From the IMG/VR virus record IMGVR_UViG_3300020000_000053, positions 1 to 30,823 of that record: DNA of 30,823 nt; one strand, 5' to 3'. The position numbers and the translations under genes are program-made. Positions 237 through 19,000 of this stretch are shown piece after piece (the stretch's first letter is position 1; the number at the start of each line of letters is the position of its first letter). Under the pieces are notes generated by a model. That model made no database searches. It worked only from the letters and a program-made list of their open reading frames with translations, and had not been told where the DNA came from. The stretch is from a virus.

Positions 237-254
237 CTTAACCAATAGGTCAAT
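237..254. promoter_or_regulatory. 18-bp dyad site (copy 1 of 7)
   Basis: CTTAACC-AATA-GGTCAAT, two inverted half-sites separated by four bases. It ends 33 bases before the ATG of the gene at 288, just after the stop codon at 236. It matches six further sites in the window in half-site sequence and in the exact 4-base spacing. Probably an operator or promoter-linked element; the binding protein is not known. Confidence 0.55.
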
Positions 255-287
255 ATCGCCGCCTTTCCAACCAAGAGGGACGACGAA

Positions 288-641
288 ATGGACTTGAACC
301 GAAACGGCAAAGACGACTTTTTGGAGGTTGCCGACGGCATCGTGGAAGCCGTCACCAACGCAGCCCATTGGGTGCAGGGCATCCTTGTCGGCCTGGCGGC
401 CGAAGCCGCGCAGGCCCCGCAGCTTTTTGCGGACGTTCTGAATCATGTGAAGACCAACGACGACGGAAGCGCGAAGCCGATTGGCGAAGTTGTCGCGGAC
501 TTCCTCACCGTCATTTACAACGATGGCCACCACGTCCTTGAAGGCGTGGAAACCAACGCGGTGGAAGCTGTGCGCAAAGTGGAAAGCGGCGTGGTGGAAG
601 CTGTCGCCGGCTTGACGCTGCAAAAGGTGCCGGGTAAATAA
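288..641 (+). CDS. Small acidic phage protein with an EF-hand-like N-terminal loop
   Basis: 117 residues, ATG preceded by AGAGGGA at 274-280. Residues 2-13 (DLNRNGKDDFLE) fit the spacing of an EF-hand or dockerin-type calcium loop, with acidic or amide side chains at loop positions 1, 3, 5, 9 and 12. The usual hydrophobic residue at position 8 is an Asp, so calcium binding is only a possibility. The rest is Ala/Val-rich, amphipathic and probably helical (VEAVTNAAHWVQGILVGLAAEAAQA). There is no signal peptide. It lies downstream of a dyad site and is closed by a strong terminator. The family is not recognised. Confidence 0.65.
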   Translation: MDLNRNGKDDFLEVADGIVEAVTNAAHWVQGILVGLAAEAAQAPQLFADVLNHVKTNDDGSAKPIGEVVADFLTVIYNDGHHVLEGVETNAVEAVRKVESGVVEAVAGLTLQKVPGK

Positions 642-645
642 TCCT

Positions 646-663
646 GGTCGGATTGTCCGACAC
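646..663 (-). terminator. Possible terminator hairpin for the leftward DNA polymerase transcript
   Basis: GTCGGA-TTG-TCCGAC is a perfect 6-bp inverted repeat with a 3-base loop (647-661), about 50 bases past the leftward polymerase stop. Read leftward it is followed by the T-rich stretch AGGATTATTTA. It could therefore act as a weak intrinsic terminator facing the opposite way from the hairpin at 686-715. It also contains an isolated dyad half-site (ATTGTCC). Confidence 0.35.
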
Positions 664-685
664 CCCCACCATACCCAACGAACTT

Positions 686-715
686 GGGGCGTCCGAAAGG
701 GCGCCCCTTTCTTTT
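686..715 (+). terminator. Rho-independent terminator, GAAA tetraloop
   Basis: A nine-base-pair GC-rich stem (686-694 with 699-707, one G.T pair) is closed by a C(GAAA)G tetraloop and followed by TTTCTTTT. This is a textbook intrinsic terminator for the rightward transcript ending with the gene at 288-641. The T-tract overlaps the stop codon of the convergent DNA polymerase gene, so the two transcription units abut. Confidence 0.8.
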
Positions 716-3083
716 AGTCCTTGCGATAGCGATAGCCGCGCCACCCGCCGGCGCAGCGCAGGGGCCACGCTTCGCCCTGGTTGTCATTGGCGAACGGCGG
801 CAACGTCCCCATGATCCGTTCAAATTCTTCGACCGACCCCCAACCCTTCACGACCTCCGCCACTATTTCGTCGTGGACGTGCAGCACGACCGGGTAGCCG
901 GCGCGCTGTATGTTGATAATGGCATAAGCGAGAATATCGAAAGACACCGCCTGCACCACATTTTCGCACAGCTTGCCGCCGTAGGTATCGACACGCACCC
1001 AACCGGCCGGCCCCATTTTCGGGTTGGTGTTCCATGTCATGTACGACAGCGACAAGGCGCCGTCTTCGGCTTTGTGCAGGCCGCGCGACGCCGGAACAAG
1101 GCGCGGCTGGTGATAGGTGAGATACCGACCGGAAGGCAGGCGGCAATATAAAACGTCGTCTTTCACCACAAAGGAAATAGGCCGGCTGGCGGGGTGCTGC
1201 GCGCACACCGTAAATTCTGTGCCGGGGTATTGAACGGCATTGACGGCCGCGCCTTCCAGGCCGAAGCGTTCGGCGCGGTATCCTGTCTCCCACGGCAAGC
1301 CCCGGAACTGCCCGCCCCAAAATTCCACAATCGCCGGCGACGCATCGCGCCATGCCAATATGTGGGTTTTCATTTCCTGTTCGCTAAAGTATTCACCGGC
1401 GCCGAAGGACAGCCAAGCGCCAATCCATCCACCATAGCCCGACGACAATTCGGCCACCTTACCGAACGGCTGGCGGTGTGGGTGATGCTGGCCAGTGTTC
1501 TTTTTGTAGTCGGCGTAAAATTCGTATGTGTTGCCGGTTATCTTGGCGGCCGACGCCAAGTAAATATCTTTCTTGTTGCGGAAAACGTCTAGGCGCCATT
1601 CCTCACCCGCGAGCGCAGCCAGCACCACAGCTTCAATAGCGCTAAAATCGGATGCGATAAGGTCGTGGCCGTCACCCGCAACAAACAAGCCGCGCAGGCA
1701 ACCAGCTATCAGCAACAGCGCGTCGCCAAAATACATTTCCGCACAGGCCAACGACCGGGTGGCTAGGATGGTGAAGGCGTCGGCGTGGACTTCGGCCGAC
1801 CATTCCAGCTTTTTGGCGGTGGGCGGCCACACAACGCCGCACCAGGGGCAAACGTGGGTGTGAGCGCCGAAGAATCGGCCGCAGCATTTGAAGGCGCTGG
1901 CGTCTTTTGGGTTGGGGCCGAACACGTCGGGGCCGGCCTTCGGCAAATTCTGCGGCTGCGGCCCGTTGCCTGTCGCGCGCCCGGTACGCGCACCATGGAA
2001 GCTAAAGAGGTCGTGCAGGCGATTCCAAAGTGTCTTTTGGTTTCGGATAGCGAACAGTTTTTTAATGCTGGCGCTTCCTATGGCTGCGCGAATTTCCAGT
2101 GCGCGGTAGGCCCAAGGGTCCATCCCCTTTACCTTCAACAGCGCGTCCATGTGTTCTTCGTCCAGGCTATCGACATGCACGCCGCGCGTGGCCAGGAACG
2201 CTTTTAGCCTTTCAAGCTGTGACGCCTTTTCGACAGCGCCGCCGGTGATGGCGCGCAATTCCGCGTTGTAGCGTTCAAACGCCTGTTCCACGATTGCGAT
2301 TGCATCGGCTAGTCCCTTGGGGTCCACCGCCACGCCGCGAAAATTTATTTCCTGGTCGTTAAGCCAAAATTCCAACACGGCCGGCGGTAGGTCGGGGCAT
2401 CGGCTGGACGCTTCGGCCTCCGCTTTTATGTCGGTGCCGTTATAGTCGTACAGGCGCGCGGCGTCGGCCTGGTCTTCCGCCGGCGTGATCCTGCGGCGCT
2501 TGTCCGTCTTGGTGGGATTGCGCGGAATAGAAAATTTATTCAGCAACCGTTTGCCGTCGGGGTCTTTGCGCGTGTGAAGCTTCAACACGTCGCCGGCATC
2601 TTCCAGCGCGCCAGGTAGCGCGAAGGCGCGGGCCTTTGCCATCGCGCAGCGTAGTTGCCGAAGGGGAAGCGGTGGCCACCCGTACTTCGGCACGCAAACT
2701 AAATTCCATATCCAATGTTCAAAGCCGCTATTCCACGCCTCAATTACCCCGCCATCGGCAAGATGCTGGAACAGGCGGTGTGGGGGTTCCATTCCCGGCC
2801 GCCAGAACATGGGGCCGCGACCGTCTTTCAAATCCCACTTGAACGATAGAACTTCGGTGCTGGGATGCGTCGCATAGACGGCGGCGCCGACGGTGTTTAG
2901 GCCCTTGCGTCCCTGCGGTGCATTGGGCGGGCAATCGTATTTTTGGGTGGCTTCATTCCAGATAAAGCCGGCTTCGCTAAAGGTTTCAAAATCTGCATCC
3001 GGTAGGACCGTGGCCAGGCCCATGCCCGCGACAAGCTGATACCCCGCCGGCAACGATTCGAGTGTTGGCGGCGGGGGTATCAT
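714..3083 (-). CDS. Family A DNA polymerase with 3'-5' exonuclease and zinc-finger insertion
   Basis: 789 residues; the phage replicative DNA polymerase. The exonuclease domain shows DFET (residues 31-34, motif Exo I), NSGFEHWIW (118-126, Exo II region) and Y214-N-G-T-D218 (Exo III), so proofreading looks intact. The polymerase domain has motif A SDFSAIE (478-484), motif B with R537, K542 and Y550-G551 (RQPFGKVAELSSGYG) and motif C HDE (737-739). Cysteines 400, 401, 412 and 415 form a CC-x10-CxxC cluster just before the palm, a zinc-ribbon-like insertion. The gene is last in the leftward replication operon, 9 bases after the SSB stop codon. The ATG has no strong ribosome binding site; Met21 is an alternative start. 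Its stop overlaps the tail of the opposing terminator. Confidence 0.96.
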   Translation of the reverse strand: MIPPPPTLESLPAGYQLVAGMGLATVLPDADFETFSEAGFIWNEATQKYDCPPNAPQGRKGLNTVGAAVYATHPSTEVLSFKWDLKDGRGPMFWRPGMEPPHRLFQHLADGGVIEAWNSGFEHWIWNLVCVPKYGWPPLPLRQLRCAMAKARAFALPGALEDAGDVLKLHTRKDPDGKRLLNKFSIPRNPTKTDKRRRITPAEDQADAARLYDYNGTDIKAEAEASSRCPDLPPAVLEFWLNDQEINFRGVAVDPKGLADAIAIVEQAFERYNAELRAITGGAVEKASQLERLKAFLATRGVHVDSLDEEHMDALLKVKGMDPWAYRALEIRAAIGSASIKKLFAIRNQKTLWNRLHDLFSFHGARTGRATGNGPQPQNLPKAGPDVFGPNPKDASAFKCCGRFFGAHTHVCPWCGVVWPPTAKKLEWSAEVHADAFTILATRSLACAEMYFGDALLLIAGCLRGLFVAGDGHDLIASDFSAIEAVVLAALAGEEWRLDVFRNKKDIYLASAAKITGNTYEFYADYKKNTGQHHPHRQPFGKVAELSSGYGGWIGAWLSFGAGEYFSEQEMKTHILAWRDASPAIVEFWGGQFRGLPWETGYRAERFGLEGAAVNAVQYPGTEFTVCAQHPASRPISFVVKDDVLYCRLPSGRYLTYHQPRLVPASRGLHKAEDGALSLSYMTWNTNPKMGPAGWVRVDTYGGKLCENVVQAVSFDILAYAIINIQRAGYPVVLHVHDEIVAEVVKGWGSVEEFERIMGTLPPFANDNQGEAWPLRCAGGWRGYRYRKD

Positions 3084-3092
3084 GCTGGCGGA

Positions 3093-4118
3093 TTAGATCA
3101 TGTACCCATGCGCCCGCAAGGCGTCGTCGGTCCAGCCTGCGCCGGCGAACACTTCGTAGGGTTGGCCTGCGGCCTTGGCCGTCATTTGCCGGCCTGCTGG
3201 CGCCACAGGGGCGGGCGCAGGGGGCGCCGCCGACATGGCGGGGTGTGGCGGCACGGCGGCCGGTGCTGGCGGCTGGTAGGGCGCCGGGGCGGGTGCAGGG
3301 GCCGGGGGTGCGTAAGCCGGCGCAGGGGCGGCATAGGCTGGCGCTGGGGGCGCGTAGGCGGGCGCCGGCGGCGGGGCATAAGCCGGCGCTGCGGCCGGGG
3401 GCGGGGCATAGGCGGCCGGCGCTGGGGGCGCATAGGGCGCCGGGGCCGGGGGTGCCGGATTGAACCCAGCAGGGGGCGCAGCGGACGCACCAGGCGGCAA
3501 CTGGACACCCTGGCCAAAGCCCACCGCGTCGGGCGACGGCCCGCTGCGGATCACCGGACCATATGCCAGCAGGCACACCATGTTGTGATTCAAATAAATG
3601 CCGGCGTTGTTCTGGTTGTTGTTGCCCTGGACGTTAAAATTGACCTGGCAATAATAGCCGGATTGAATCGCGCCCTTTTCGATCAACGCGGCCGGCTTAC
3701 CGTCCTGTGTGCCTAGCAGCGTGAACAGGTTGGGCGCGAAGCCCGAACCGAAACGCAGCACCCAATGACCGGGGAAACCCTCTTGCGTATTGGGAACGCG
3801 ATTCTTTTTGTTCGGCGTGGTGCTGTCGCCATCGGTGATTTTCCAAGCGAAGTCTGGGCGCTGCGCCTGCGCCGGAAAGGCTGTGTGGCCGACAGCCCAA
3901 ATCTTGGCGCCCCAATCGGTTTCCGCCCAATGGCGTTCGCCGCGCTTGGGGATGGCAAAGCCAAAGGGATAGTCCACGCGTGCCTGTCCCGCTTGCGGTC
4001 CCGTCTTGGTGGTGAGTGGCTTGCCGTCAAAATCTTTTGTCTGCGGGTCGTAGAGGTCGCCCCATACGATGCGCCCCACGGGAGTGGTGATATTCACCAC
4101 AGTGTTAACTTGCGTCAT
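3093..4118 (-). CDS. Single-stranded DNA-binding protein, Enc34/DUF2815 type
   Basis: 341 residues from the ATG at 4118, chosen because AGAAGGG lies 9 bases upstream; an in-frame start at 4172 would sit inside the preceding gene. The N-terminal 200 residues match the Enc34_ssb (DUF2815) family layout: the TTPVGRIVWGDLYDP start, the central WKITDGD, and the GAIQSGYYCQVNFNVQGN core with LNHNMVCLLAYG. A long low-complexity tail of Pro/Ala/Tyr (PAYAPP-like repeats) follows, then a short conserved-looking end, GWTDDALRAHGYMI. By analogy with other SSBs the flexible tail and tip may recruit partners (inference). In this family the protein coats single-stranded DNA at the fork. It lies between the DUF2800 nuclease and PolA genes, the usual order. 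Its start overlaps the true DUF2800 C-terminal frame by 14 bases. Confidence 0.9.
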   Translation of the reverse strand: MTQVNTVVNITTPVGRIVWGDLYDPQTKDFDGKPLTTKTGPQAGQARVDYPFGFAIPKRGERHWAETDWGAKIWAVGHTAFPAQAQRPDFAWKITDGDSTTPNKKNRVPNTQEGFPGHWVLRFGSGFAPNLFTLLGTQDGKPAALIEKGAIQSGYYCQVNFNVQGNNNQNNAGIYLNHNMVCLLAYGPVIRSGPSPDAVGFGQGVQLPPGASAAPPAGFNPAPPAPAPYAPPAPAAYAPPPAAAPAYAPPPAPAYAPPAPAYAAPAPAYAPPAPAPAPAPYQPPAPAAVPPHPAMSAAPPAPAPVAPAGRQMTAKAAGQPYEVFAGAGWTDDALRAHGYMI

Positions 4119-5264
4119 TTCCAAAAACCCTTCTAGCTTGTTCGGTGTCTGCGGCAATAAGTTTTGTTTCACCCTTCGGCCGCGCCGCGAAGGATTTAAC
4201 CACGTCTTCGGTTAGGCCGGCGGCCTTCCCCAATTTGATGGCTTGCGTTGGTGTGATGGCTTCCGGTTCTTTGCGCAAGTCCACGCCGTACATATCACCA
4301 AGCACGACGACTTCGGCCGCCGGCTTCGTCCACGCCAAGCGGCCACACCAGCACGGACGTTCGCCATTACTTGGGCTTCCAGTCCGGTGGCGCGAGCCTT
4401 TAGCAATTCCTGCGCGCGTTGGATCATGCGCAATTCCACAGCCTGCGCGGTCGGTGACATGCGGACGGGCACAGCCAGGCCGGCGGTGTCCATCGCGCTT
4501 TCGCTCGCGCGCTGTAGCGCCTCGCAATCGTGCCGCCCTTTACAGTCCCTACATTCCGCGCCCACGTTGGTGGGGGCGCCCGGTCCCATAGACAAGTACG
4601 CATTGTTGCGCAGTTGGTCGAAGTACGGCCGCAGCTTCGCGGCGGTGGTTTCCCAATGGCGCACCTGGTCGCCGCGTCCATAGCAGCGCGGTTGCACGAT
4701 AACGATTCTAACTTTGATGTTTTCCCACGGTATATTTGCGAGTTCGGGCCGCTCAAGCACGCCGGCGGTATAGTCGATACACTGCCAATTCTCGAAAGCG
4801 TCAACGAAGCGGTGGCCATATTTGTAGTCCAGCAAATAAATTTCGGCGCTGGGGATGGCGCGATGCGTGCCGCCGCTGATAGCCCACACGTCGGGCGTTC
4901 CTTCGTTCACCGGATGCACCAGGTTGTGCATGGTCAACTTTTCTTCAACGTGGATAGTGTCCAGCGCGTCGGACCCGATGATTTCCACCACCGTGTCCAC
5001 AAACATTTCCGCGCCTTCCAACATTTCCTTGTCCAAAATCGTGCCGGCCGGGTCCGACATGCCGATTTTGAATTGCCGCGCCTGCTTGTACTGTTGAAGG
5101 TCGCGCAGCGTCGTAGCACCCACCCAATGCGAAGCGTCCCCCTCGCGGGCGTCTTGCGACTTTTCCGCTTCGGGGTTTGCCGCTTCCAACGCTGTGGACC
5201 CGGCGCACTGCGCCCCCCACCTACCGGCGGCGGAGGGCGCTAAGGGTGCGTGCTGTTCGCTCAC
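4105..5264 (-). pseudogene. DUF2800 Cas4-like nuclease gene, frameshifted with probable small internal deletion
   Basis: The first frame (GTG at 5264, GTGA overlap with the upstream gene) encodes a DUF2800 protein: APSAAGRW start, the EEKL and LLDYKYG motifs of the PD-(D/E)XK core, and a CxxCKGRHDCEAL cysteine cluster. DUF2800 proteins are Cas4/RecB-like nucleases in phage replication-recombination modules. After ...VRAGVA the frame enters nonsense rich in R, S and K and stops at 4212. The expected C-terminal domain (AWTKPAAEVVVLGDMYGVDLR, then TPTQAIKLG and ARRVFG) continues in the -1 frame down to the TAA at 4105. The join falls near 4333-4345. Homologues I recall have about ten more residues at this place, so a deletion of a non-multiple of three is more likely than a simple shift. 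It could be a real lesion, a sequence error or, less likely, recoding; no classic slippery heptamer is seen. Confidence 0.75.
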
Positions 5265-5935
5265 GGGCGCGACAGCGCGAGAGCGTCAAGCGTGGCGCCA
5301 ACCGACGGGATAAGGTCGGGGCGCTGCGCAAGCAGCGGAGCGGCGGCGATACCGAACTGCTGGCACACGCCGGCAACATCGGCTTGGGTGATTTTCCCGG
5401 CGGCAATGTGCCCCGTAATTTTTCCCATAAGTCCAATGAAGTCCAGCGCGCCAGTTTGTGCCGGCGCAGCGGGAGGCGGAGGCGGCGGAGGCGGGGGCAC
5501 CTGGCCAACCGGCGCAGGCGGAGGGGGCGGCGGTGCCGGCGGGGTGAAAGCACCCTGCGGGTTCGGCGCGGGATAGGTAAGGCGCAACTGCTGTTCCACG
5601 CTGGACACCACCGTGTCTTGCACGCCGCGCTTTTTCTTCCACGAACCGTCTTTGTTGAACGACTTGGCGCTGCTGTGGATTCGTTCGTCCCACGGGAAGC
5701 CAGCGGAATCTTTCGGCGCCGTTTCGGCCTGCTGTTGCTGCGGAGGCGGAGGGGGCGGCGTGAACGCGGCGGTGGGTGAGGGACCGGGCGCCGGTGCGGG
5801 CGGGACAGCGCCCGATTGCATCAAAGCGGCGGTGACGTTCTGCATTACTTCCATTCCGGCGATAAGGCCGATAACGGACATTACCCGTTGCACTTCGCTA
5901 GCGTCGGGGTTTCTGGACAAAGCAATGGTGAACAT
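5261..5935 (-). CDS. Proline-rich two-domain phage protein with PWDERIHSS motif
   Basis: 224 residues; the ATG has AAAGGAAG 8 bases upstream. A short N-terminal helix region is followed by a Pro/Gln linker, a central block containing PWDERIHSSAKSFNKDGSWKK and RRGV-like residues (KKRGVQD), a second very long proline linker, and a C-terminal helical domain. The central block recurs in many phage proteins next to SSB and nuclease genes, but I know of no assigned activity; a role in replication or recombination is inferred from position only. The start lies 21 bases downstream of a dyad site, so this gene may lead a sub-operon containing the DUF2800, SSB and PolA genes. Confidence 0.75.
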   Translation of the reverse strand: MFTIALSRNPDASEVQRVMSVIGLIAGMEVMQNVTAALMQSGAVPPAPAPGPSPTAAFTPPPPPPQQQQAETAPKDSAGFPWDERIHSSAKSFNKDGSWKKKRGVQDTVVSSVEQQLRLTYPAPNPQGAFTPPAPPPPPPAPVGQVPPPPPPPPPAAPAQTGALDFIGLMGKITGHIAAGKITQADVAGVCQQFGIAAAPLLAQRPDLIPSVGATLDALALSRP

Positions 5936-5956: not shown

Positions 5957-5974
5957 GTTGTTCGGTTGGTCAAT
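5957..5974. promoter_or_regulatory. 18-bp dyad site (copy 2 of 7)
   Basis: GTTGTTC-GGTT-GGTCAAT on the plus strand. It begins 21 bases upstream of the leftward start at 5935 and touches the stop codon of the primase-helicase gene. It has the same half-sites and 4-base spacer as the other copies, placed to control the genes from 5935 leftward. Confidence 0.55.
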
Positions 5975-8373
5975 TAGCCAAACTTCGCGGCGGCCGTCAA
6001 GCTCTTGGTTTGTGTGTCTTCGTAAACTTTGCAGATAGACGGCCCTGTACTTAGTACATTATTGGGGTGTCCGCGCTTCACGAACAGGCGCGGGCGCGCA
6101 TTGTCTGGCTGCACGGGGTTAGGCACGCGGCCTTCGGGCAACGCGGGGTGGTAGTGATAGCCAAGCCCTTCAAGGATAATTCGCCGCTTGTTGGGCGGTA
6201 CGCGGCGTTCGGCTTTCAAATGCGCCAACAGCTTGTCCACCGCCATAGACGACACCCACCCGCCGGCAAAGCCGGGGCGTTCTTCGCCAATCGCTTCAAG
6301 TATCGCTTGTTCTATTCCGCCCACGGACAGCCCTATGGCTTCGTTGGTGCTGGTGGTGTCGGGCGCGCGGTGCATATCTTTGGCGGGGTTTAGCGCGTCC
6401 GGTATCGCATAGGTGCGCAGGAAATGATTGATAATCGCGGCGCCGGGTGTGTGGCCGGCGAATTCATCACGCCCCCAAAACCAGTTATAAAGCTGCGGCA
6501 TGTAGTTTCCGCCCATGCCGTGCGCCGCGAGGTCTTCCACTTTCTGTTGCGCCGTAAAGAATATGCCCCACCGTCGTTCGTTCGCTGTCTTCGGCACCGC
6601 GTCCTTGTGGTTGCTGCACGCTACGAAATTGGCGCGGTTGTCGCCGGTGAACTGGTCTTGCCCCTTTGCTTGAATCTCTATGCGGCTGTTGGTTATGAGA
6701 GGTTTTAGCGCGTCCATCATGTTGCGACGTTCGCCGGTGTAAATTTCCTCTAGCCCAATGAACAGTTTATTTTGCAGCCATCCCGTAAACTTCGCACCGC
6801 CGGCCACAAGGTCTTCGCTGTTCGGCAAATGGGTGTAGCGGTCGCCCACGCATTGGGACAGTGCGGTAATAATCAGCGTCTTGCCGTTGCCTTCCACGCC
6901 TTGCACCAGCGGCGCCCATTGGAATTTGCGGCCGGGGTATTGCACCACCGCCGCCATATAAGCCAACAGCTTTTCGCGGTCGGCCTGGTCGGGCAACAGC
7001 TTTTCCATGTGAACCATGAAGGGCGACACGTCGCCTTCGGTCGCCGGCGTTTCAATTGGCCACCAGATATTTGCCAGCGTCGTGCCGGCTTCGGTTATGA
7101 GTTCGCCGGGCGCGCGTTCGGGGCGGAAGCAAAGGCCGTCCGCGCGCGGCGCACGGAACGATTGGCTTTCGGTGAAGGCTTCCCATGCGTTGCGCACCAC
7201 CCGTTCGTTCTGCGGGTCCATCGGGAAGCTATACCCGCCGTACATGACTTTAAATTGGTCGGGCTTTAGCAGTTGGCCGCCGGGCACAAGCACGCGGTGC
7301 ATGTTGCAGACATAGACGCAGCCCGCGAAAATTTTCATTTGTTCTTCGGCCGAAAGCCACGTTTCGCCGGTGACGGGAACAGCCATTGCCGACATGCCGG
7401 TGGCGGCCACGCCGGTATGTTCCTGCGGGGGCTTGTCCTGCAACACGTCGTATTGCCGCGCCACCACCATTTCAATTGTGGTTCGTAAATAGTCGGGTCT
7501 GTCGTGCCATTTTTGGCGGACAAGCGCCGATTGCCACATAAGGCGCAGGATGCGTTCGCAATCCTTGCCCGTCCAGAACGCGAGTGCTTGCGCCAACGCG
7601 CTGTCCGCGCGGCTTTCATCCCACGGCCGCGACTTATGGTCGTCCGGGTAGCAGCGCGCTAGGGCGTCGGCGTCCCTCTCCCAAAGCTGTTGGAAGCTGG
7701 CGCGCGTGCCGAACGCCTGCGCCGATGATTGCGAGCGCAGCGCGCGGCGGATTAGCTCCGCGTCGTCGGTCGGGCCGCGCCATCGCGGGTCCGGTGCGGT
7801 CGTCCATTCGGCGGTTGTGGCCGCGTCCGGGGTTAGGTAGGTGGCGACAAGCCATTGCAGCGCCGGCGTGTGATCCGTCCAGGCGTCGCCGCCGGCGGCC
7901 GTTCCGGTGAGCGCCACGAATCGGTTTTCTGTGTATAGGTCGAAGTACGAACCGTATTTGACTTTGCGCGCTGGGGGTGGTGGGCCTGCATTGCCGCACG
8001 CGATGATATGCAGGCCCCGGCCGCTGGCGGAAATTTCCACGGCCGCGCCGGCGAACGATTGCAGCATGGCTTGCGCCGTCGGGGACCATGCCCCGTCCAC
8101 CAAACATTCGTCTATGTCGATAAAAAAGAACGGGTCCGCCGGCGTGAAGACGAAGCCCACGCCGTGGTTGGCGCCCAACATTTCGGCATAGGTGGCGCAG
8201 CTTTCCGCGTCCATCCACGCGCCGGCGTCGTGCGCGTTGGCGACAAGGCCGCTTCTGTAATCAATGGGGAATTTGTCGGTCTTGCCCGGCCGGGTGGCGG
8301 AGGGCACCAACTTGAAGGGGACGAACTGCCTATACCCTCGCAATGAAGCGAGGGCGGGGGGCAACACGAACAT
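5974..8373 (-). CDS. Primase-polymerase / SF3 helicase fusion
   Basis: 799 residues. The N-terminal prim-pol-like domain has D86-I-D88 in FFFIDIDEC, SASGRGLHI (about 115-123) and RFVALTG (about 151-157), matching the catalytic DxD and the SxSGxGxHI motif of archaeo-eukaryotic-type primases. The C-terminal third is a D5/NrS-1-like superfamily 3 helicase: Walker A GVEGNGKT (492-499), Walker B LFIGLEE (537-543), a sensor-like ANFVACSNHKDAVP (581-594) and NERRW (598-602). The protein would prime synthesis and unwind DNA at the phage fork. It follows the TetR-like gene by 14 bases. The start is supported by the typical LRGYRQFVPFKLVPS beginning, though the ribosome binding site is weak. Confidence 0.93.
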   Translation of the reverse strand: MFVLPPALASLRGYRQFVPFKLVPSATRPGKTDKFPIDYRSGLVANAHDAGAWMDAESCATYAEMLGANHGVGFVFTPADPFFFIDIDECLVDGAWSPTAQAMLQSFAGAAVEISASGRGLHIIACGNAGPPPPARKVKYGSYFDLYTENRFVALTGTAAGGDAWTDHTPALQWLVATYLTPDAATTAEWTTAPDPRWRGPTDDAELIRRALRSQSSAQAFGTRASFQQLWERDADALARCYPDDHKSRPWDESRADSALAQALAFWTGKDCERILRLMWQSALVRQKWHDRPDYLRTTIEMVVARQYDVLQDKPPQEHTGVAATGMSAMAVPVTGETWLSAEEQMKIFAGCVYVCNMHRVLVPGGQLLKPDQFKVMYGGYSFPMDPQNERVVRNAWEAFTESQSFRAPRADGLCFRPERAPGELITEAGTTLANIWWPIETPATEGDVSPFMVHMEKLLPDQADREKLLAYMAAVVQYPGRKFQWAPLVQGVEGNGKTLIITALSQCVGDRYTHLPNSEDLVAGGAKFTGWLQNKLFIGLEEIYTGERRNMMDALKPLITNSRIEIQAKGQDQFTGDNRANFVACSNHKDAVPKTANERRWGIFFTAQQKVEDLAAHGMGGNYMPQLYNWFWGRDEFAGHTPGAAIINHFLRTYAIPDALNPAKDMHRAPDTTSTNEAIGLSVGGIEQAILEAIGEERPGFAGGWVSSMAVDKLLAHLKAERRVPPNKRRIILEGLGYHYHPALPEGRVPNPVQPDNARPRLFVKRGHPNNVLSTGPSICKVYEDTQTKSLTAAAKFG
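6046..6058. repeat. Perfect TGTAC-TTA-GTACA palindrome
   Basis: A 13-base perfect inverted repeat inside the last codons of the primase-helicase gene. It carries the same GTACA core as the boxes in the strand-switch region (16599-17251). It may be a binding site or chance. Confidence 0.3.
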
Positions 8374-9517: not shown

Positions 9518-9518
9518 G

Positions 9519-10608: not shown

Positions 10609-10626
10609 GTTGACTGGTTGGACAAT
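10609..10626. promoter_or_regulatory. 18-bp dyad site (copy 4 of 7), divergent intergenic region
   Basis: GTTGACT-GGTT-GGACAAT in the only gap between the leftward replication operon (start 10596) and the rightward island (start 10668). It is 12 bases from the leftward start, the same distance as at the TetR-like gene, and could control both directions. Confidence 0.6.
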
Positions 10627-11941: not shown

Positions 11942-13517
11942 CCGATGCGGACGCCGGCAAGCGCTAGGGCGCAGGCAATGCGCGCGGTGAGGTCTTCCGC
12001 ATCGCGCTTGTTGAGCGTGTGCGCCGTCGCCACGTCCACCCCAAAGTCAAAATAGAACCGGCGCTGCATCATACGAGCGGTGTCGCCGTCGCTTTCGCGC
12101 CACCATCCCCAATGGTTCATGTAGCCGCGCAACGGCGCCTGCGCCTGCTGGCGCGACAGGTGGTTATTATGGATGGCGCGGCCCACTATGCCGTTGACGC
12201 CTTCGGGGATGCGTGACACGCCGTCAATGCGCGCAATCTCACCGCGCAGCGCAGCCAGCACGCCGGGGTCCAATTCCATCAAATCACCGTCCACCTGTTC
12301 GGGCGCACCGCGTCCCGCCGGTTCTGGTATGTGGCCGCAATAGGGGCACTGGTGCATTAGGCGTTCGTAGTAGCGCGTACATTCCGCACAGGCGCGGCCG
12401 GGGATCACGCCCAACATGCTGGCGGAACGCGCGCCACGCTCGCGCCTGTCCAAGGACCATACGCGCGTGCGGTCGGGCAGGCCGTGGCGTATGACGTTCC
12501 CCACATGGTCGATAATGATTCCCCACAACTTGCCGTCTAGGATGCGCAGCGCACGGAAGAATTGTTGCGCGTACAGACTAAAGGAAGCGGTGGCGCGGCC
12601 CATGCTCACAACTTCGATTGCCGGCACGTCAAAGCCTTCCCCGAACAAATCTACATTGACCAACTGTAACAACTCGCGCTTGCGGAAGCGGCGCAGAATA
12701 GAGGCGCGCAAGGTGTCGGGGGTCTTGGCGGTGACGACCTCCGCAGCGACGCCGGCGGCGCGGTAAGCGGCGGCTATCTTGGTGGCGTCTTCCACGTCCA
12801 CCGCAAAGGTGATCCCTAGCCGGCCGGGCGCGATGCGCAAATAGTGTTTAACAATATCGCCCACGATGGCGCTGGCGTGCGTGGCCTCGCGCAGCTTCAC
12901 AGGGCTAAAGTCGCCGCCTTCGGTAATACCAACATCGGATAAATCCAAGTCGGTGGGCGGGCAGAATATCCGGTAGTCGGTGAGATACCCGCGCGTGATA
13001 AGTTCGCGCGCCGTCGGCCCCATAACCATGTCGTGCATGATCCCGTCGGCGTGAGCGCCAAGGCCCCGGCCGTCGGCACGTCCAGGTGTTGCGGTCCAGC
13101 CGACGCCGCGCGCATTGGGAAACTTCGCGCACGCGCGGCCCCACTTGTTTTCGCGCAACAGGTGGTGGGCTTCGTCGGTTTGCCATAGCCGCACCTGGTT
13201 AAACCACGGGTCGTTGCCTTCCATATTTCCAAGGGTGTCCACGCCGGCCACACCGACGTGGCTTTGGGGATGAAAAAAGCTGTTCCCCACTTCCTCCATA
13301 TGGATACGCACACAGGTTTTAATCAGGTGATCCCCGCCAATTCTTGGCGGTGCGCAATGTCCACCGACGCGCCAGGTTCCAGCACGTTTTCGTTGGCCAT
13401 GTTCACAGTTTTGCCGGCACCACATGGCGCGACCGCAAGCACGTTGCGGTTGCCGCGTTGCCAAGACGCATGGATACCGGCGTGCAATCCGTGTTGATAG
13501 TCTCTAAGCGGGATCAC
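11938..13517 (-). pseudogene. SF2 DEAD/DEAH-type helicase gene, frameshifted with probable internal deletion
   Basis: The first frame starts at a GTG (13517; GTGA overlap with the upstream gene) and carries IPLRDYQ, Walker A APCGAGKT and VDIAHRQEL, then stops at 13323. A second frame, open to 11938, carries LIKTCVRIHMEE, AGVDTL, the DEAH box (TDEAHH), WTATPGRADGRGLG, ELLQLVNVDLFGEGFD, the QQFFRALRI motif VI region and a C-terminal CAEC...CPYC zinc cluster. The frames join near 13335-13350. Homologues I recall have about 20 residues between HRQEL and the IKT region that are absent here, so a non-triplet deletion plus frameshift is likely. Intact, the protein would be an ATP-dependent helicase of the replication module. 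A true lesion, an assembly error or a split gene are all possible. Confidence 0.82.
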
Positions 13518-13690
13518 TTGCGGTAGCGTTCGCTGTCCCACGTATGCGGAGAGTCGCACCGCCAGCCATATAGGTTTCGGAATATCTCCATAAGTTTTAT
13601 GTGATCCGTCCACGCAAAGATTGCCAACGTAAGCGACGGCGGTTCAATTGCCGGCGTGCGTTCAAAGGCGCGCGTGGTGCGGTAGCTCAT
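13514..13690 (-). CDS. Small hypothetical protein
   Basis: 58 residues from the ATG at 13690 with GAGG 9 bases upstream and ATGA overlap with the preceding stop. The sequence TLAIFAWTDHIKLMEIFRNLYGWRCDSPHTWDSERYRK is aromatic and charged; no family is recognised. It precedes the helicase by a 4-base overlap, so the two are probably co-translated. Confidence 0.55.
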   Translation of the reverse strand: MSYRTTRAFERTPAIEPPSLTLAIFAWTDHIKLMEIFRNLYGWRCDSPHTWDSERYRK

Positions 13691-13956
13691 TGCCGCGCGA
13701 GCCTCACCACTTTGCCGCCGATAATCTGGCATGTCCAAATCATGCGGAACGTATACCCACTACCGGCGTGGACCGTCACCATGCGGATAGACACCCAATT
13801 GTCGCCGGCGCCCGATGCACTGCGCGGGCCGAACTCCGCGCGGTCGGGATAGGCCAACCGCTCTTTGATGGCGGAGCGGCACCGGGCCTGCGCGGTGTCT
13901 TCGTCCATCGCGTGCGCCGGCGTGGCCAGCAGCAAGAGCAAAGCAAAGCGTTTCAT
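13687..13956 (-). CDS. Small exported protein with signal peptide
   Basis: 89 residues with a very good ribosome binding site (GGAGGG, 6 bases before the ATG). The N-terminus MKRFALLLLLATPAHA is a clear Sec signal peptide with AHA as signal peptidase I site. The mature part has two cysteines (ARCRSAIKERL and WTCQIIGG) that could form a disulfide, and the pattern AIKERLAYPDRAEF, seen in small periplasmic proteins. A periplasmic phage protein in an early operon could act in superinfection exclusion or envelope modification; this is inference from location. Confidence 0.7.
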   Translation of the reverse strand: MKRFALLLLLATPAHAMDEDTAQARCRSAIKERLAYPDRAEFGPRSASGAGDNWVSIRMVTVHAGSGYTFRMIWTCQIIGGKVVRLARQ

Positions 13957-14432
13957 TTCGATCCCTCCGGTATCAGGCTTTCGCGGTAGTCATAGCCGGC
14001 GGCGAACGCCTCGCGCGAAATGCGCTTTTCGTTTTCCGTCATTTGGTCGTAGTGGCGCGGGGTGTATTCGTTCATGGCCACGTTAAGCGATGGCGACATG
14101 CCATTGGGCTTTTCCGCCGGCGGCTTCCATACCTGGCCAAGCAGCGCGCACGCCATCTGTTCGGCAAGTTGCGGCGATAGCGACATGCGCGCCAAGCTGC
14201 GGTCCACGCGGGTGGTTTTCTTGCGGTCGCCGCGCGCCGTGCCTACGGGCATGTCGCGGCCGGCTTCAATTTCCAACTGCGTTTCTTCACCACGCACCGG
14301 ATGGAACACGCGCACGATGCGCAGCGCGCCGATTATGTCGCCTTTGGTGCCGGCGCGGCTTTCGCCTTTGTACCGCGTGGCAAATTCAGTATGCAGATTA
14401 CTACGATGTATTCTCACGCCGTTGTCGCTCAT
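13953..14432 (-). CDS. Hypothetical phage protein
   Basis: 159 residues, mostly polar. It starts RIHRSNLHTEFATRYKGESRAGTKGD and ends with a helical YDQMTENEKRISREAFAAGYDYRESL, reminiscent of small host-interaction or regulatory proteins, but without a recognisable motif. It is coupled to its neighbours by short overlaps on both sides (4 bases at 14429-14432 and 13953-13956). Confidence 0.6.
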   Translation of the reverse strand: MSDNGVRIHRSNLHTEFATRYKGESRAGTKGDIIGALRIVRVFHPVRGEETQLEIEAGRDMPVGTARGDRKKTTRVDRSLARMSLSPQLAEQMACALLGQVWKPPAEKPNGMSPSLNVAMNEYTPRHYDQMTENEKRISREAFAAGYDYRESLIPEGSK

Positions 14433-14692
14433 TGCCCCAATTTCCTTGCTAAACCCAATGCGTCCACCAGCGCTTGCACGGCCGGCACGTCGTCGGGGTG
14501 TATATCAAATTTGTAGCTGTGAAGGTTGCCGCGATTCGTGCCCCGCCGTCTATTCTCGCAACAGATAGTGCATTGCCCGGACGCGGTATAACGCGGTGAC
14601 TGGTGGCCTTTGCGGCATGGCAAGCCGGTGTTGTACCGCACCATGTTAGCCATGCGCGCCACGTCGCGGGAAATAACGGGGAATTGCGCCAC
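14429..14692 (-). CDS. Small zinc-finger protein
   Basis: 87 residues from a GTG at 14692, with GGGAA about 11 bases upstream; the downstream ATG at 14653 lacks a ribosome binding site. The core NTGLPCRKGHQSPRYTASGQCTICCENRRR is a CxxxH...CxxC finger of the HNH/treble-clef-like type found in many phage small proteins; no catalytic HNH residues follow it. It may bind nucleic acid. Confidence 0.62.
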   Translation of the reverse strand: MAQFPVISRDVARMANMVRYNTGLPCRKGHQSPRYTASGQCTICCENRRRGTNRGNLHSYKFDIHPDDVPAVQALVDALGLARKLGQ

Positions 14693-14693
14693 G

Positions 14694-14918
14694 CTATCGC
14701 GTTCCCATAAGTTTGCAGATTGCGGCGCCTATCAGGTGTTCGGCATTGCCGCAGTAGGGGCACGCCGTTGGAGCGTTGGCAACCGCGCTTCGCGCTATCA
14801 ACTTCGCGGCCTTTAAGCCACGGATCACGCCGCGCTGATAGCCGCGATTGCGCCAGGCAATGGCACCAGCCCACCCAAGCACCCATTGGGCCACGATTAC
14901 CCAATGCAGCGTCGTCAT
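14694..14918 (-). CDS. Small membrane protein with CxxC motif
   Basis: 74 residues from the ATG at 14918 (ATGA overlap with the preceding stop). One N-terminal membrane helix (HWVIVAQWVLGWAGAIAW) is followed by a basic cytoplasmic segment (RNRGYQRGVIRGLKAAKL) and CPYCGNAEHLIGAAIC. Function unknown. Confidence 0.55.
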   Translation of the reverse strand: MTTLHWVIVAQWVLGWAGAIAWRNRGYQRGVIRGLKAAKLIARSAVANAPTACPYCGNAEHLIGAAICKLMGTR

Positions 14919-15196
14919 AGTGTGGCCGCCACAATGCCGACGACGCCAAGCACCAGCAGCGTGCCCCATACCATCGCCGGCTTGATCCGGTTGCCGTCAA
15001 AGAACGGTTGGAACAGCGCGTCTTCGCCATGCCCTTCATAGGGCGGGACAGGCGGGTGGTACACGCCATTGATGGCGGCGCCCTGTGCTGTCTGTACTTC
15101 GGCAAGTCGCGCCTGCGCGTCGTGCAGCGGGTCGTTAATCGGGATACCGACGCGGCGGGCGTAAGTGGCCAAGCGGCCGTAGGTTGGGTTTTGCAT
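14915..15196 (-). CDS. Small protein with C-terminal membrane anchor
   Basis: 93 residues from the ATG at 15196, with AAAGG 9 bases upstream. The soluble part (YGRLATYARRVGIPINDPLHDAQARLAEVQTAQGAAI) contains a probable short coiled coil. The last 22 residues (MVWGTLLVLGVVGIVAATL core) form a single membrane helix, giving a tail-anchored layout. Unknown function. Confidence 0.58.
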   Translation of the reverse strand: MQNPTYGRLATYARRVGIPINDPLHDAQARLAEVQTAQGAAINGVYHPPVPPYEGHGEDALFQPFFDGNRIKPAMVWGTLLVLGVVGIVAATL

Positions 15197-15197
15197 T

Positions 15198-15482
15198 TTA
15201 CCAAGCCTTTCCATGTTGTTCTGCGTACTGATAGACGCCGCCGATAGTGTCAACGGTCGCCACATGCTTTCCCAAGCGGTGTATTTCAATCCCGCTAGGG
15301 TGCTTCCAATTCAACAGCGCCACAGTATCGCCGCCAGTTGCTAACAAACCGGAAAGTTCATTGCCGGTGCGGTCGGTGCCATAAGCGTCTTTGATATAAA
15401 ACCTAGACGGCTGCGGCTTCGCGGGCTTCACCGCTTTAGTGGCGTGCTTTTTCTTCGGGTTTCTGTTCGGATGATTAACCAT
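15198..15482 (-). CDS. Small basic hypothetical protein
   Basis: 94 residues from the ATG at 15482 (TAATG overlap, GGAAG just upstream). The first 30 residues are very basic (NPKKKHATKAVKPAKPQPS), then comes a folded-looking part with NELSGLLATGGDTVALLNWKHPSGIEIHRLGKHVATVD. The basic tail suggests nucleic-acid contact, but the family is not recognised. Confidence 0.55.
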   Translation of the reverse strand: MVNHPNRNPKKKHATKAVKPAKPQPSRFYIKDAYGTDRTGNELSGLLATGGDTVALLNWKHPSGIEIHRLGKHVATVDTIGGVYQYAEQHGKAW

Positions 15483-15802
15483 TATACTTCCAATGTCCTT
15501 TCTTCCTTCACCCACTCAACAATCGCGGCCCACACTTCGGGCGCGAAAGACACGCTTGCGCCCATGCTGGTGTTGCGTCCGCTGTCGTAGCTCTGTTCTA
15601 TGGTGACTTCGATTTGCACCGCTTCGCCTTCGTCGTCGCGGCCTTTCCGTATCGCCAAGGTGGTGGTTTTCGTGACGCCACCAACACCTAGAGAAGCCAT
15701 CGCACGGTAGCGCGAGCGCACAACTTTAGATGCGTTCTTGCCGTGGGCGGCGTAGTGTTCGCGCGGCCCGCACGGTTTCATAAAAGTGTCCAGGGTCTTC
15801 AT
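15482..15802 (-). CDS. Small hypothetical protein
   Basis: 106 residues from the ATG at 15802 (AAGGA 7 bases upstream; ATGA overlap). The sequence contains TLAIRKGRDDEGEAVQIEVTIEQSY and FAPEVWAAIVEWVKEERTLEV, an alternating beta pattern and a final amphipathic helix. No family is recognised; it is part of the coupled leftward accessory operon. Confidence 0.55.
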   Translation of the reverse strand: MKTLDTFMKPCGPREHYAAHGKNASKVVRSRYRAMASLGVGGVTKTTTLAIRKGRDDEGEAVQIEVTIEQSYDSGRNTSMGASVSFAPEVWAAIVEWVKEERTLEV

Positions 15803-16059
15803 TGCGGTATCCTTTTGCGGTTGCGGGCGTAGGCTTTGACGAAGCCCCACGCGATGGAAGAACGGTTGGTTTTGTTTTTCATGGCGCGTTCGCCAAGCAG
15901 CCGCGCCAGCTTTTCCACGTCCACCACCAATTCTATGTCGGCGTCTTCGTAGCCATCGGGCACGGTGGTAAAGCCGGTGCCGCCGTTGCTGGTGGTGTCC
16001 ACGCGCTTACCGATAGAACGGCGCAGCGCCTTAAGGGTGAAGGTGTGGGGCTGGCTCAT
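15799..16059 (-). CDS. Small hypothetical protein
   Basis: 86 residues from the ATG at 16059 (ATGA overlap with the tiny membrane gene). It contains DADIELVVDVEKLARLLGERAMKNKT, a probable beta strand then helix, and a basic end (YARNRKRIPQ). Function unknown. Confidence 0.55.
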   Translation of the reverse strand: MSQPHTFTLKALRRSIGKRVDTTSNGGTGFTTVPDGYEDADIELVVDVEKLARLLGERAMKNKTNRSSIAWGFVKAYARNRKRIPQ

Positions 16060-16163
16060 TGCATCACCCCGGCCGGCAAGCTGGAAATAAAGAGGGTGAA
16101 GGCGCCAAGCGCAAAGACCGCGCCCCACAGCAGCCCAACGAAAACTTTTTGCCAAAAGGTCAT
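16056..16163 (-). CDS. Tiny single-pass membrane protein (35 aa)
   Basis: The ATG at 16163 is preceded by the purine-rich CAGGGGCGGAG, ending 9 bases upstream. Nearly the whole product is one hydrophobic helix (KVFVGLLWGAVFALGAFTLFI). It leads the leftward accessory operon behind a dyad site and a leader almost identical to that of the gene at 16513. The small size makes it easy to miss; the conserved leader supports it. Confidence 0.5.
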   Translation of the reverse strand: MTFWQKVFVGLLWGAVFALGAFTLFISSLPAGVMQ

Positions 16164-16173
16164 TGCGTCAACT

Positions 16174-16200
16174 CCGCCCCTGAAAACCCGCGAGGCGCCG
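16174..16200 (-). promoter_or_regulatory. GC-rich leader that may hide the RBS (copy A)
   Basis: On the minus strand CGGCGCCTCGCG is followed by 6 bases and CAGGGGCGG. CGCCTC can pair with GGGGCG (one G.T pair, 11-base loop), which would cover the likely ribosome binding site of the gene at 16163. An equivalent block with identical spacing lies at 16523-16549. Confidence 0.45.
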
Positions 16201-16211
16201 GGCACGTCTAT

Positions 16212-16229
16212 ATTGTCCGATTGGTCAAT
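16212..16229. promoter_or_regulatory. 18-bp dyad site (copy 5 of 7)
   Basis: ATTGTCC-GATT-GGTCAAT, the best-matching copy (13 of 14 half-site positions symmetric). It lies between the stop at 16235 and the leader of the gene at 16163. Confidence 0.6.
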
Positions 16230-16234
16230 TAGTG

Positions 16235-16513
16235 TCAACCAGCCTTCACCTTGGAAATGGTAAACACGCCGGCGGGCGTGTAGTGGCCCTGGCAAATTTT
16301 GCGGCCGGTTTTATACCCCCGCACGTCGTAGTCCTTGCCGTCCAGAACGGAAACGCAATCCTCGAAAGTGCCGGAAAAAATCAAGCGGCTGGTGGAACCC
16401 CACCGCACGCGGTCGCTGTCGTTCACCGAAGCAATGTAGGAAAAAATCTGCCATTCGGTGCGAGCGAAGCCGGCAAAGCGATAGTTGGGCTTCACTAGGA
16501 TAAACTGGCGCAT
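16235..16513 (-). CDS. Small hypothetical protein
   Basis: 92 residues from the ATG at 16513. An in-frame start at 16597 would run through the dyad and the duplicated leader and is less likely. The sequence FILVKPNYRFAGFARTEWQIFSYI and IFSGTFEDCVSVLDGKDYDVRGYKTG is aromatic and beta-like. No family is recognised. The gene has its own dyad and GC-rich leader, like the gene at 16163. Confidence 0.58.
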   Translation of the reverse strand: MRQFILVKPNYRFAGFARTEWQIFSYIASVNDSDRVRWGSTSRLIFSGTFEDCVSVLDGKDYDVRGYKTGRKICQGHYTPAGVFTISKVKAG

Positions 16514-16573: not shown

Positions 16574-16591
16574 ATTGTCCGGTAGGTCAAT
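16574..16591. promoter_or_regulatory. 18-bp dyad site (copy 6 of 7)
   Basis: ATTGTCC-GGTA-GGTCAAT, upstream of the duplicated leader of the gene at 16513. It is seven bases away from the AGTACA double box at 16599. Confidence 0.6.
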
Positions 16592-16613: not shown

Positions 16614-16615
16614 GT

Positions 16616-16864: not shown

Positions 16865-16890
16865 TGGGCGCTTTCGTGGTGCGGGCAGAC

Positions 16891-17124: not shown

Positions 17125-17236
17125 TTGAGCAAAGCCCTTTTCCGGTTGGTAGGATTGCAACCAAGCCATTGTTTTCACATAAGACCTTGACAATTCGGCG
17201 TTGTGGCCGTCACGTTGGGCGCTACACGCAACCAAA

Positions 17237-17267
17237 AGTACAAGAGGTACAGGGGCGAAATTCCCCT
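17237..17267 (+). promoter_or_regulatory. AGTACA double box and small hairpin before TerS-like gene
   Basis: AGTACA-AGA-GGTACA (17237-17251) runs into AGGGG-CGAAATT-CCCCT (17251-17267), a 5-bp hairpin that ends 9 bases before the ATG at 17277. The only purine-rich candidate ribosome binding site (AGGGG) is in the stem. Confidence 0.4.
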
Positions 17268-17276
17268 GCGTCACAC

Positions 17277-17618
17277 ATGGCCTCACGCAAAGCGAAGGCG
17301 AAGCCCCCCGGCGGCGCCGTCACCATCTTGCCGCCGACGCCGAACACGGATCACCAATTCAAGCCCGGCAACGAAGGAAAAAAACCCGGCACTGTTGGGA
17401 AGGATCACCGCGCGTTGCGCAGCATGATTCTTGACGCGCTGGAAATGTCGGGCGGCGTCCACTACTTGGTGTACCATGCGATGGTGAACCCACAGCTTTT
17501 TATGCCGCTCATTGGGAAAGTGATTCCATTGCAGATTGCCGGCGACCCCAACGAACCGCTAAACGTCGTGCATCACTACATCGCGCGAAAGAGCGTTGCG
17601 CCTCCAAAGAAAAAATAG
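17277..17618 (+). CDS. Putative terminase small subunit-like protein
   Basis: 113 residues from the ATG at 17277. The N-terminus is basic and Pro-rich (ASRKAKAKPPGGAV), followed by HQFKPGNEGKKPGTVGKDHRALRSMILDALEMSGGVHYLVYHAMVNPQLFMPLIGKVIPLQI. The FKPGN.GKKPG lead, a helix and the PQLFMPLIGKVIPLQI end recur in phage proteins found directly before the large terminase and often labelled small subunit or DUF5681-like. It would recognise phage DNA for packaging. The assignment rests on pattern and position; no clear HTH is seen. No good ribosome binding site is visible outside the hairpin at 17251. Confidence 0.62.
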   Translation: MASRKAKAKPPGGAVTILPPTPNTDHQFKPGNEGKKPGTVGKDHRALRSMILDALEMSGGVHYLVYHAMVNPQLFMPLIGKVIPLQIAGDPNEPLNVVHHYIARKSVAPPKKK

Positions 17619-17621
17619 CGC

Positions 17622-18983
17622 GTGCCACTTCCCGCAGAATTTGAATTGCCGAACGCCGAAGTATTCGACCCGCTGCTAGAGCCTGCGCGCTACAAAGGCG
17701 CGTGGGGCGGGCGCGGCGGCGGCAAGGATTACTTTTTTGCGGACATGATGTTGGAACACGCGCTTTACCAACGCGGGCTTTTTTCTGTCTGCATCCGTGA
17801 AGTGCAGCGCACGTTGCGCGACAGCGTGAAGCGATTGTTAGAAGCGCGCTTGCGAAATGTGTTCGGGCTTGGTGAGGCGGACGGCTTTAAGATTTTCCGC
17901 GATACGATAGAGACACCAGGCGACGGCCTCATAACCTTCACGGGGATGCAGGATCACACCAGCGAGTCCATTAAGTCGATTGAAGGCGCGAACCGCTTTT
18001 ACTGGACCGAAGCGCAAACAGCATCGGCCACCAGTCTAAAACTGTTGCGCCCCACAGCGCGCGAAGCCGACGTGGAAATGTGGTTCGCCTGGAACCCAAA
18101 GCTACCGCCCGACAAAGAACACCCGGAAAATTCCATAGACGGTTTGCTGCGCGGCCAATTCGTCCCGCCACCGCCGCGCGCTAAAGTGATAGAGGCGCAA
18201 TGGTATGACAATCCTTGGTTTCCGCCGGGCCTAGAGGAAGAACGCACCTACGACCTCAAGCACCGCCAGGCCGAAGACTACAAGCACATATGGGAGGGCG
18301 CCTACGAAACCCGCAGCGAAGCGCGCGTGTTCAAGAATTGGATTGTGCGCGACTTTGAAACGCCAACCAACGCCATCATGCGGCGCGGCGCGGACTTCGG
18401 CTTTAGCGTGGACCCGTCGGTGCTGGTGTCGTGTTTTGTTGGCGACCTGGTGGACACTGGCGTGTTGGGCGCCGATGGCGAACGCATCCACAAAGCTGTA
18501 GCCAACGATAAGGGCCGGCACTTGTTCGTGGACTATGAGGCGCACCGCGTCGGCTGCGATGTTGACCATATCCCCGCGCTGTTCGCCGGCAACGATTGGT
18601 TGGGCGCGGACGACCCGACGAAGGCGCGCTGGAAAAATCCCTATGGCGACGCCGGCATACCGGACGCGACTAAGTGGGCCATCACCGCCGACAGCAGCAA
18701 CCCGCAATCTATCAGCTACCTAAATCGCCACGGCTTCAACGTGAAGCCCGCTATCAAAGGCAAAGGGTCGATAGAGGAAGGCGTAGAGTTTCTAAAAGCC
18801 TACACCATCGTGGTGCATACCCGTTGCAAGCACACGGCCGACGAACTCACCTACTACAGCTTCAAGGTGGACAAACAGACTTTGCTTGTACTTCCTGTAC
18901 TGGAAGACAAGAAAAATCATGTGATTGACGCCCTGCGCTATGCGGTCGAAGACGTGCGGCGCGGCCGTGGGTTCTTTGGCTAG
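17622..18983 (+). CDS. terL: Terminase large subunit (ATPase-nuclease)
   Basis: 453 residues from a GTG three bases after the preceding stop. Walker A GGRGGGKD (residues 29-36; the usual Ser/Thr after Lys is Asp, as in some PBSX-type terminases), a Walker B-like YWTEAQ (about 127-132) with the catalytic Glu, and the coupling motif AWNP (about 156-159). The C-terminal nuclease part has RRGADFGFSVDPS (Asp about 258) and ends NHVIDALRYAVED with a conserved metal-binding Asp. It cuts concatemeric phage DNA and pumps it into the prohead with the small subunit and the portal. An AGTACA double box on the opposite strand lies inside at 18887-18901. Confidence 0.94.
   Translation: MPLPAEFELPNAEVFDPLLEPARYKGAWGGRGGGKDYFFADMMLEHALYQRGLFSVCIREVQRTLRDSVKRLLEARLRNVFGLGEADGFKIFRDTIETPGDGLITFTGMQDHTSESIKSIEGANRFYWTEAQTASATSLKLLRPTAREADVEMWFAWNPKLPPDKEHPENSIDGLLRGQFVPPPPRAKVIEAQWYDNPWFPPGLEEERTYDLKHRQAEDYKHIWEGAYETRSEARVFKNWIVRDFETPTNAIMRRGADFGFSVDPSVLVSCFVGDLVDTGVLGADGERIHKAVANDKGRHLFVDYEAHRVGCDVDHIPALFAGNDWLGADDPTKARWKNPYGDAGIPDATKWAITADSSNPQSISYLNRHGFNVKPAIKGKGSIEEGVEFLKAYTIVVHTRCKHTADELTYYSFKVDKQTLLVLPVLEDKKNHVIDALRYAVEDVRRGRGFFG
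18887..18901 (-). repeat. AGTACA double box, minus-strand orientation
   Basis: On the minus strand AGTACA-GGA-AGTACA, the same 9-base period as the boxes at 16599 and 17237, but inside the terminase coding sequence. It could be a functional third site or coincidence. Confidence 0.3.
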
Positions 18984-19000
18984 TTGACCTCTAGGTTAAT
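18983..19000. promoter_or_regulatory. 18-bp dyad site (copy 7 of 7)
   Basis: GTTGACC-TCTA-GGTTAAT, overlapping the last base of the terminase stop codon. It is the only copy in the late region and opens a 189-base gap before the gene at 19173, where it may mark a promoter or operator. Confidence 0.55.

Follow-up and report, generated by a model that had tools for sequence, protein, structure and literature searches.

The repressors of phages P1 (C1) and phiC31 act at dispersed operators that overlap phage promoters, and both serve established lysogeny; their DNA-binding proteins and site sequences are unrelated to those of the small TetR-like phage protein considered here. Dispersed operators under one phage repressor are also known from the L5-type mycobacteriophages (PMC9283540). 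The gp71 stoperators of these Cluster A phages resemble the sites described below in that a single phage protein goes with many operators, dispersed over promoters and short gaps between genes, but they are 13-bp asymmetric sequences, oriented with transcription and served by a monomeric two-domain repressor (PMC9283540), whereas our sites are symmetric dyads that accompany a TetR-type protein with a single HTH and a tail.

LuxR, HapR and SmcR, the TetR-type regulators of Vibrio quorum sensing, have the same HTH fold as the phage protein, and the likeness extends to a dyad operator with a non-specific 4-bp centre, a TTGA half-site core and many sites across the genome. They differ in being cellular proteins of ∼200 aa with a ligand/dimerisation domain, while the phage protein has 107 aa and a tail of ∼40 aa. 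The LuxR operator is a 21-bp dyad around its 4-bp non-specific centre (PMC2628434), and a natural HapR site reads cttttgacatttctgtcacaaa (PMC10328515). A tetR gene has been noted in phages phiPLPE, CP-T1 and 138, with speculation limited to an osmotic stress response and no operator or regulon described (Comeau 2012, PMC3391216). CP-T1 is reported to be temperate, yet it lacks any known lysogeny gene (PMC3391216). No description of the motif or of the function of the tetR gene was found in a partial sample of the literature. Our comparison of genomes gives good support to a multi-operator phage regulon that would be run by a minimal TetR-type protein (hereafter mini-TetR) through operators of LuxR-like geometry, and that appears common to a large phage group.

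Seven dyads in a viral contig

A sequence-only reading of the window, which here means the whole 30,823-base IMG/VR record, had picked out seven 18-bp dyads spread over both strands and proposed, from proximity, that the small TetR-like protein encoded at 8388-8711 binds all of them and controls itself. Every coordinate and the half-site pattern proved correct, and in a scan of the window that pattern matches these seven and none besides. A weight matrix built from relatives only, with the window left out, places them at ranks 1, 2, 3, 4, 6, 8 and 10 of ∼30,800 positions. The candidate operators, each a dyad, are:

237..254, CTTAACCAATAGGTCAAT, between a 77-aa ORF (3-236) and a 117-aa ORF (288-641); matrix rank 6
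5957..5974, GTTGTTCGGTTGGTCAAT, 21 bases ahead of the 5935 start of the leftward replication operon; matrix rank 10
8724..8741, GTTAACCGGATAGTCAAT, separated by 12 bases from the tetR start (8711), an autoregulatory position; matrix rank 4
10609..10626, GTTGACTGGTTGGACAAT, flanked by the divergent starts 10596 (-) and 10668 (+), with rightward TTGACT-17-CAATAT; matrix rank 3
16212..16229, ATTGTCCGATTGGTCAAT, ahead of the 16163 start (-), inside a TTGACA-17-CAATAT promoter-like element; matrix rank 1
16574..16591, ATTGTCCGGTAGGTCAAT, ahead of the 16513 start (-); matrix rank 2
18983..19000, GTTGACCTCTAGGTTAAT, where the large terminase gene ends, ahead of 19173 (+); matrix rank 8

The broader pattern TTRWYY-N4-RRWYAA has exactly the same seven matches in the whole record, while 100 order-2 Markov sequences gave a mean of 0.19 and a maximum of 2; read backwards, it has zero matches in the record. 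A spacer of exactly four also holds, since the other spacers tried (0-3 and 5-12) yield no match. The dyads do lie at gene boundaries: four of them are wholly intergenic and the other three overlap only the final 1-5 bases of the upstream gene's end. The distance of 12 bases is right not only for tetR but also for the dyad before the 10596 start, and the dyad at 18983 overlaps the terminase gene by one base, the last of its stop codon, with 172 bases left to 19173. Most dyads precede transcription units in the replication and small-gene half of the genome, and the pattern scan of the record found no copy among the structural genes beyond 19 kb.

A further idea is that the dyads are structural or replication-related elements such as RNA hairpins, packaging signals or origin signals. 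Every dyad could in principle fold as a 7-bp stem with a 4-base loop, but mismatches in the window break the stem (for example GTTGTTC versus GGTCAAT), the dyads precede transcription units and promoters, and the late region is free of them; we find such a role barely credible.

The mini-TetR protein

The gene for the putative regulator is followed directly by that of a primase:

8388..8711 (-), mini-TetR regulator, 107 aa, with a TetR_N HTH at residues 18-64 and a conserved tail; phrog_8723
5974..8373 (-), primase/helicase (DUF5906, NrS-1 HBD), directly downstream of mini-TetR and its syntenic partner in relatives

The TetR_N HTH (PF00440) is detected in the 107-aa protein with an E-value of 1.2e-10, better than the cut-off, and in 59 of 61 relatives. 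The phrog_8723 profile, which has no assigned function, spans residues 3-107 (E 8.1e-32) and matches all 61 of them, and the ∼40-aa tail after the HTH is conserved across the family. An AlphaFold model from the single sequence was poor, so the monomer model from an alignment of 61 sequences (pLDDT 91.8) was used instead. It has the HTH, a long fourth helix (57-70) and then short helices at 76-84, 88-91 and 95-106; the usual C-terminal ligand/dimerisation domain of TetR proteins (∼130-150 aa) is absent from this predicted model, the chain ending at 107 aa. The best Foldseek match is DNA-bound LuxR (7amn), with HapR and SmcR also found, all at weak E-values (4e-3). One helix of the window protein presumably resembles the recognition helix of LuxR, a likeness to which we give no weight as evidence.

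When the LuxR operator criteria are applied (21-22 bp; G5, A6, A8, T15, A17), the phage sites agree in geometry, G5 and A6, and their position 8 is mostly G or C. The half-site ends in CG in the phages versus TA for LuxR, the latter as deduced from the critical positions of the LuxR paper. Within the phage family, position 8 of the operator is A in all five loci whose protein has V at the end of the recognition helix, versus 4 of 56 loci with M, and the five V-type proteins are at most 49% alike. This covariation was spotted post hoc among 368 tests, and we regard it as a suggestive lead, a possible sign of direct reading of the site. A glycine in the recognition helix was also considered as a marker of dyad-bearing phages and dropped, because the larger IMG/VR set contradicted it.

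Several relatives have two HTH regions in one mini-TetR chain, the first with a helix like IPDGSFPHVMG (loci L008:21424-21924, L010:38065-38565, L052, L053, L059, L060, L063, L079, L080, L082, L083, L087, L091, L093, L095 and L097); these are perhaps fused or modified dimers.

Association of dyads with the protein

Using the window protein as query, we found 13 phage records at E 1e-5, and the homologue from JD001 brought 99 records, 65 of them Klebsiella phages. The nucleotide sequence of the window has no match among phages, and neither its TetR nor its primase sequence alone finds anything in IMG/VR, so the window has no close relative. Gapped palindromes were then listed without supplying the motif, for 11 genomes first and for further ones later. 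TTGACG-N4-CGTCAA tops this list in JD001 (11 copies versus 0.35 expected), and TTGACA-N4-TGTCAA is the best entry in Scuro apart from a tandem array (6 copies versus 0.15). The same listing gives 13 dyad copies in both KsaM-C1 and AAM22, 9 in CP-T1 and 7 in PEi21; enrichment in SppYZU01 is weaker than in these six phages. CP-T1 thus has dyads, and its tetR belongs by sequence search to the same gene family as the window protein. An apparent enrichment in Psp6 was discounted, the copies there lying inside genes. Enrichment is absent in AeroV_348, SFCi1, Vibrio 1.009, PY6, VP16T, R9Y2 and StenoB2; where the protein is present without an enriched dyad (AeroV_348, PY6, R9Y2, StenoB2 and others), the site has therefore drifted or the link is not universal. 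PY6 (L015), which has no TTGAC dyad, carries a palindrome of its own, TGTAGC-N8-GCTACA, at about five places (7106, 8013, 12381, 19991 and 28187), apparently outside most genes; its copies may be terminators or a diverged operator.

The hosts of the dyad-bearing phages are Klebsiella, Acinetobacter, Pantoea, Edwardsiella, Vibrio and Shewanella. Such a span is hard to reconcile with binding by a HapR-like or FNR/CRP-like host regulator, through which the phage would sense the state of its host. The dyads also accompany a phage-encoded protein, and their TTGA-to-TCAA spacing is 8, unlike the FNR box, where it is 6. We hold this reading to be very improbable, even though the half-site TTGA does resemble HapR and FNR-type sites (HapR: PMC10328515).

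A larger sample was taken from IMG/VR, where 80 loci were fetched by primase alignment with the regulator kept out of the query. Mini-TetR is encoded in 77 of the 80, usually right before the primase. Dyads were counted in 71 non-redundant loci (1.14 Mb), with other spacers from 0 to 20 as controls. With at most one mismatch, TTGAC-N6-GTCAA occurs 250 times versus a mean of 46.6 at other spacers; perfect copies number 73 versus 1.65 per other spacing, and they are enriched only at spacer 6. At least three copies are present in 54 of the 77 mini-TetR loci (3.9 expected from control spacers), while loci with a related primase and no mini-TetR have 0-2 copies, near background. The consensus of the IMG/VR sites is TATTGACG-N4-CGTCAATA, and the conserved operator unit, with its dyad symmetry, reaches 20 bp. 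Perfect copies are non-coding in 61 of 86 cases (71% versus 17% expected), and 47 of 68 loci have a copy in the region ahead of tetR, versus 10.2 for control spacers. A palindromic candidate operator at its own gene, as is usual in the TetR family, is found both in the window and in these 47 loci.

These counts speak for the earlier proposal. It would have been contradicted by a motif equally frequent inside genes, whereas the sites are intergenic instead of spread through genes, or by relatives that keep the gene and lack the sites, whereas most such relatives retain them. Co-occurrence of dyad and protein, the copies upstream of tetR and the operator geometry together support mini-TetR as the putative binder of all seven sites and its own regulator.

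Promoter placement and mode of action

Of 87 sites in the named phages, 41 have TAnnnT at a distance from TTGACN of exactly 17 bp; at the IMG/VR sites this holds for 92 of 494 orientations, most other distances having ∼12. One half of the dyad is thus the -35 box of a sigma70-like promoter in relatives, and these promoters face the next gene 81 times to 16, at a median distance of 97 bases. A smaller TAnnnT peak directly after the dyad at the IMG/VR sites (spacer 10, 40 cases) may stem from a TA that flanks the operator or from promoters of a second layout. Clearly promoter-like sequence exists in the window only at the dyads 16212 (TTGACA-17-CAATAT) and 10609 (TTGACT-17-CAATAT), both of which score at about the 99th percentile or higher against random places. 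The remaining window dyads score in the mid to upper range versus random places, and a consensus promoter scan of the window gave nothing useful and nothing near the dyads, therefore the mechanism proposed below is borrowed from relatives.

The sequence-only reading had offered phage promoters as an alternative, and a part of it stands: the dyad does overlap the -35 box in relatives. Taken alone, it would reduce the dyads to -35 elements in shared, possibly bidirectional use, and no phage regulator would be involved; the left half with its -10 at 17 bp in relatives fits this, and a TTGACN on each strand could drive genes that diverge, as they do at 10609. A -35 box, however, leaves unexplained the intact second half-site, at fixed distance, of sites that serve one direction. 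What is conserved is a 20-bp unit with dyad symmetry, most window dyads come without a -10, and primase loci without mini-TetR are without dyads too. Plain promoters are therefore an improbable account of the motif.

We consider it probable, judging from sequence comparison, that mini-TetR, which the phage itself encodes, has its operators in the seven dyads and would repress early and replication units including its own gene. The putative targets, apart from tetR, are:

714..5935 (-), putative leftward target operon with family A DNA polymerase, ssDNA-binding/annealing protein, DUF2800 exonuclease and a phrog_11133 protein
8737..10596 (-), putative leftward target operon with a phrog_33336 zinc-finger-like protein, endonuclease, pyrophosphohydrolase and small ORFs
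11938..16513 (-), candidate target operon read leftward, which ends in a DNA helicase and has two operators upstream (16212 and 16574)
288..641 (+), 117-aa ORF, a putative target that matches no family
10668..11521 (+), small ORFs read rightward, also putative targets; the 83-aa ORF at 10668 matches no family

In the mechanism that we propose, two copies of the mini-TetR HTH would each contact one of the inverted TTGACN half-sites, which flank a 4-bp centre without specificity. We infer both this contact and a dimer, the form in which TetR-family proteins bind DNA, presumably held together by the short helical tail that replaces the usual ligand domain of TetR proteins. Bound protein would occlude host RNA polymerase at the promoters of early and replication units, its own promoter included, so that early and replication genes would be switched off during infection as mini-TetR accumulates and blocks polymerase. 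An operator laid over the -35 box of strong promoters, together with a copy before the protein's own gene, is most simply that of an autoregulated early repressor.

Mini-TetR could also bind the same sites chiefly to activate, or to regulate both ways as LuxR does, with the units being turned on. LuxR, whose operator geometry is equal, both activates and represses (PMC2628434), and some window promoters look weak, as activator-dependent ones can. Yet in relatives the operator covers the -35 of near-consensus promoters, where binding should exclude RNA polymerase, and operators before tetR itself suit negative feedback. We think activation rather unlikely, and it is repression that we infer.

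Lysogeny and wider meaning

A bolder suggestion concerns the lysogeny or pseudolysogeny switch that has long been missing in this phage group: it would be the mini-TetR regulon. We rate this suggestion as unlikely, though not negligible. If it were true, the CP-T1 genome would be silenced by TetR at about ten dispersed operators, with no integrase or cI-like repressor, and 'strictly lytic' relatives, the Klebsiella phages included, would carry the switch in latent form or employ it for early shut-off. As regards a role as immunity repressor, in lysogeny or superinfection immunity, the CP-T1 protein has no match in plasmids, and none of the genome matches is a prophage with both mini-TetR and dyads. 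A Vibrio hannami locus was considered as a prophage and rejected: it is an integrase-primase element, with the TetR match among neighbouring chromosomal-type genes. The element (L113:7672-15000) has an integrase and a related primase between chromosomal genes, with no mini-TetR or recognised phage structural genes, and looks like a phage satellite with the same primase type. The puzzle posed in 2012 by CP-T1, reported as temperate without known lysogeny genes (PMC3391216), becomes directly testable.

A DNA site and a likely job can now be proposed for a family with no assigned function that is present in ∼100 sequenced phages, many of them isolated on Klebsiella pneumoniae, and in most of the IMG/VR relatives examined. 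The predicted picture is of a stripped-down TetR that reads the -35 region of host-type promoters and runs a genome-wide regulon. Natural half-site variants in the family offer a ready set for studies of TetR-type DNA specificity.

Some features of the window are of separate interest. The DUF2800 exonuclease gene (4105-5264, -) breaks frame near 4330 and its conserved C-terminal part goes on in a different frame (ORF 4105-4527), which looks like a frameshift in the gene or an error of the contig at that place. The helicase ORF (11938-13613, -) lacks the Walker A region, and APCGAGKT is found in an overlapping ORF of another frame (13323-13613), an apparent second frameshift in the contig. The ORFs 22223-23536 and 24589-26433 (+) have no match in Pfam or PHROG; they carry many degenerate repeats of ∼18-20 aa like AGTCAGAAVVAGVGK, possibly tail or adhesin-like repeats.
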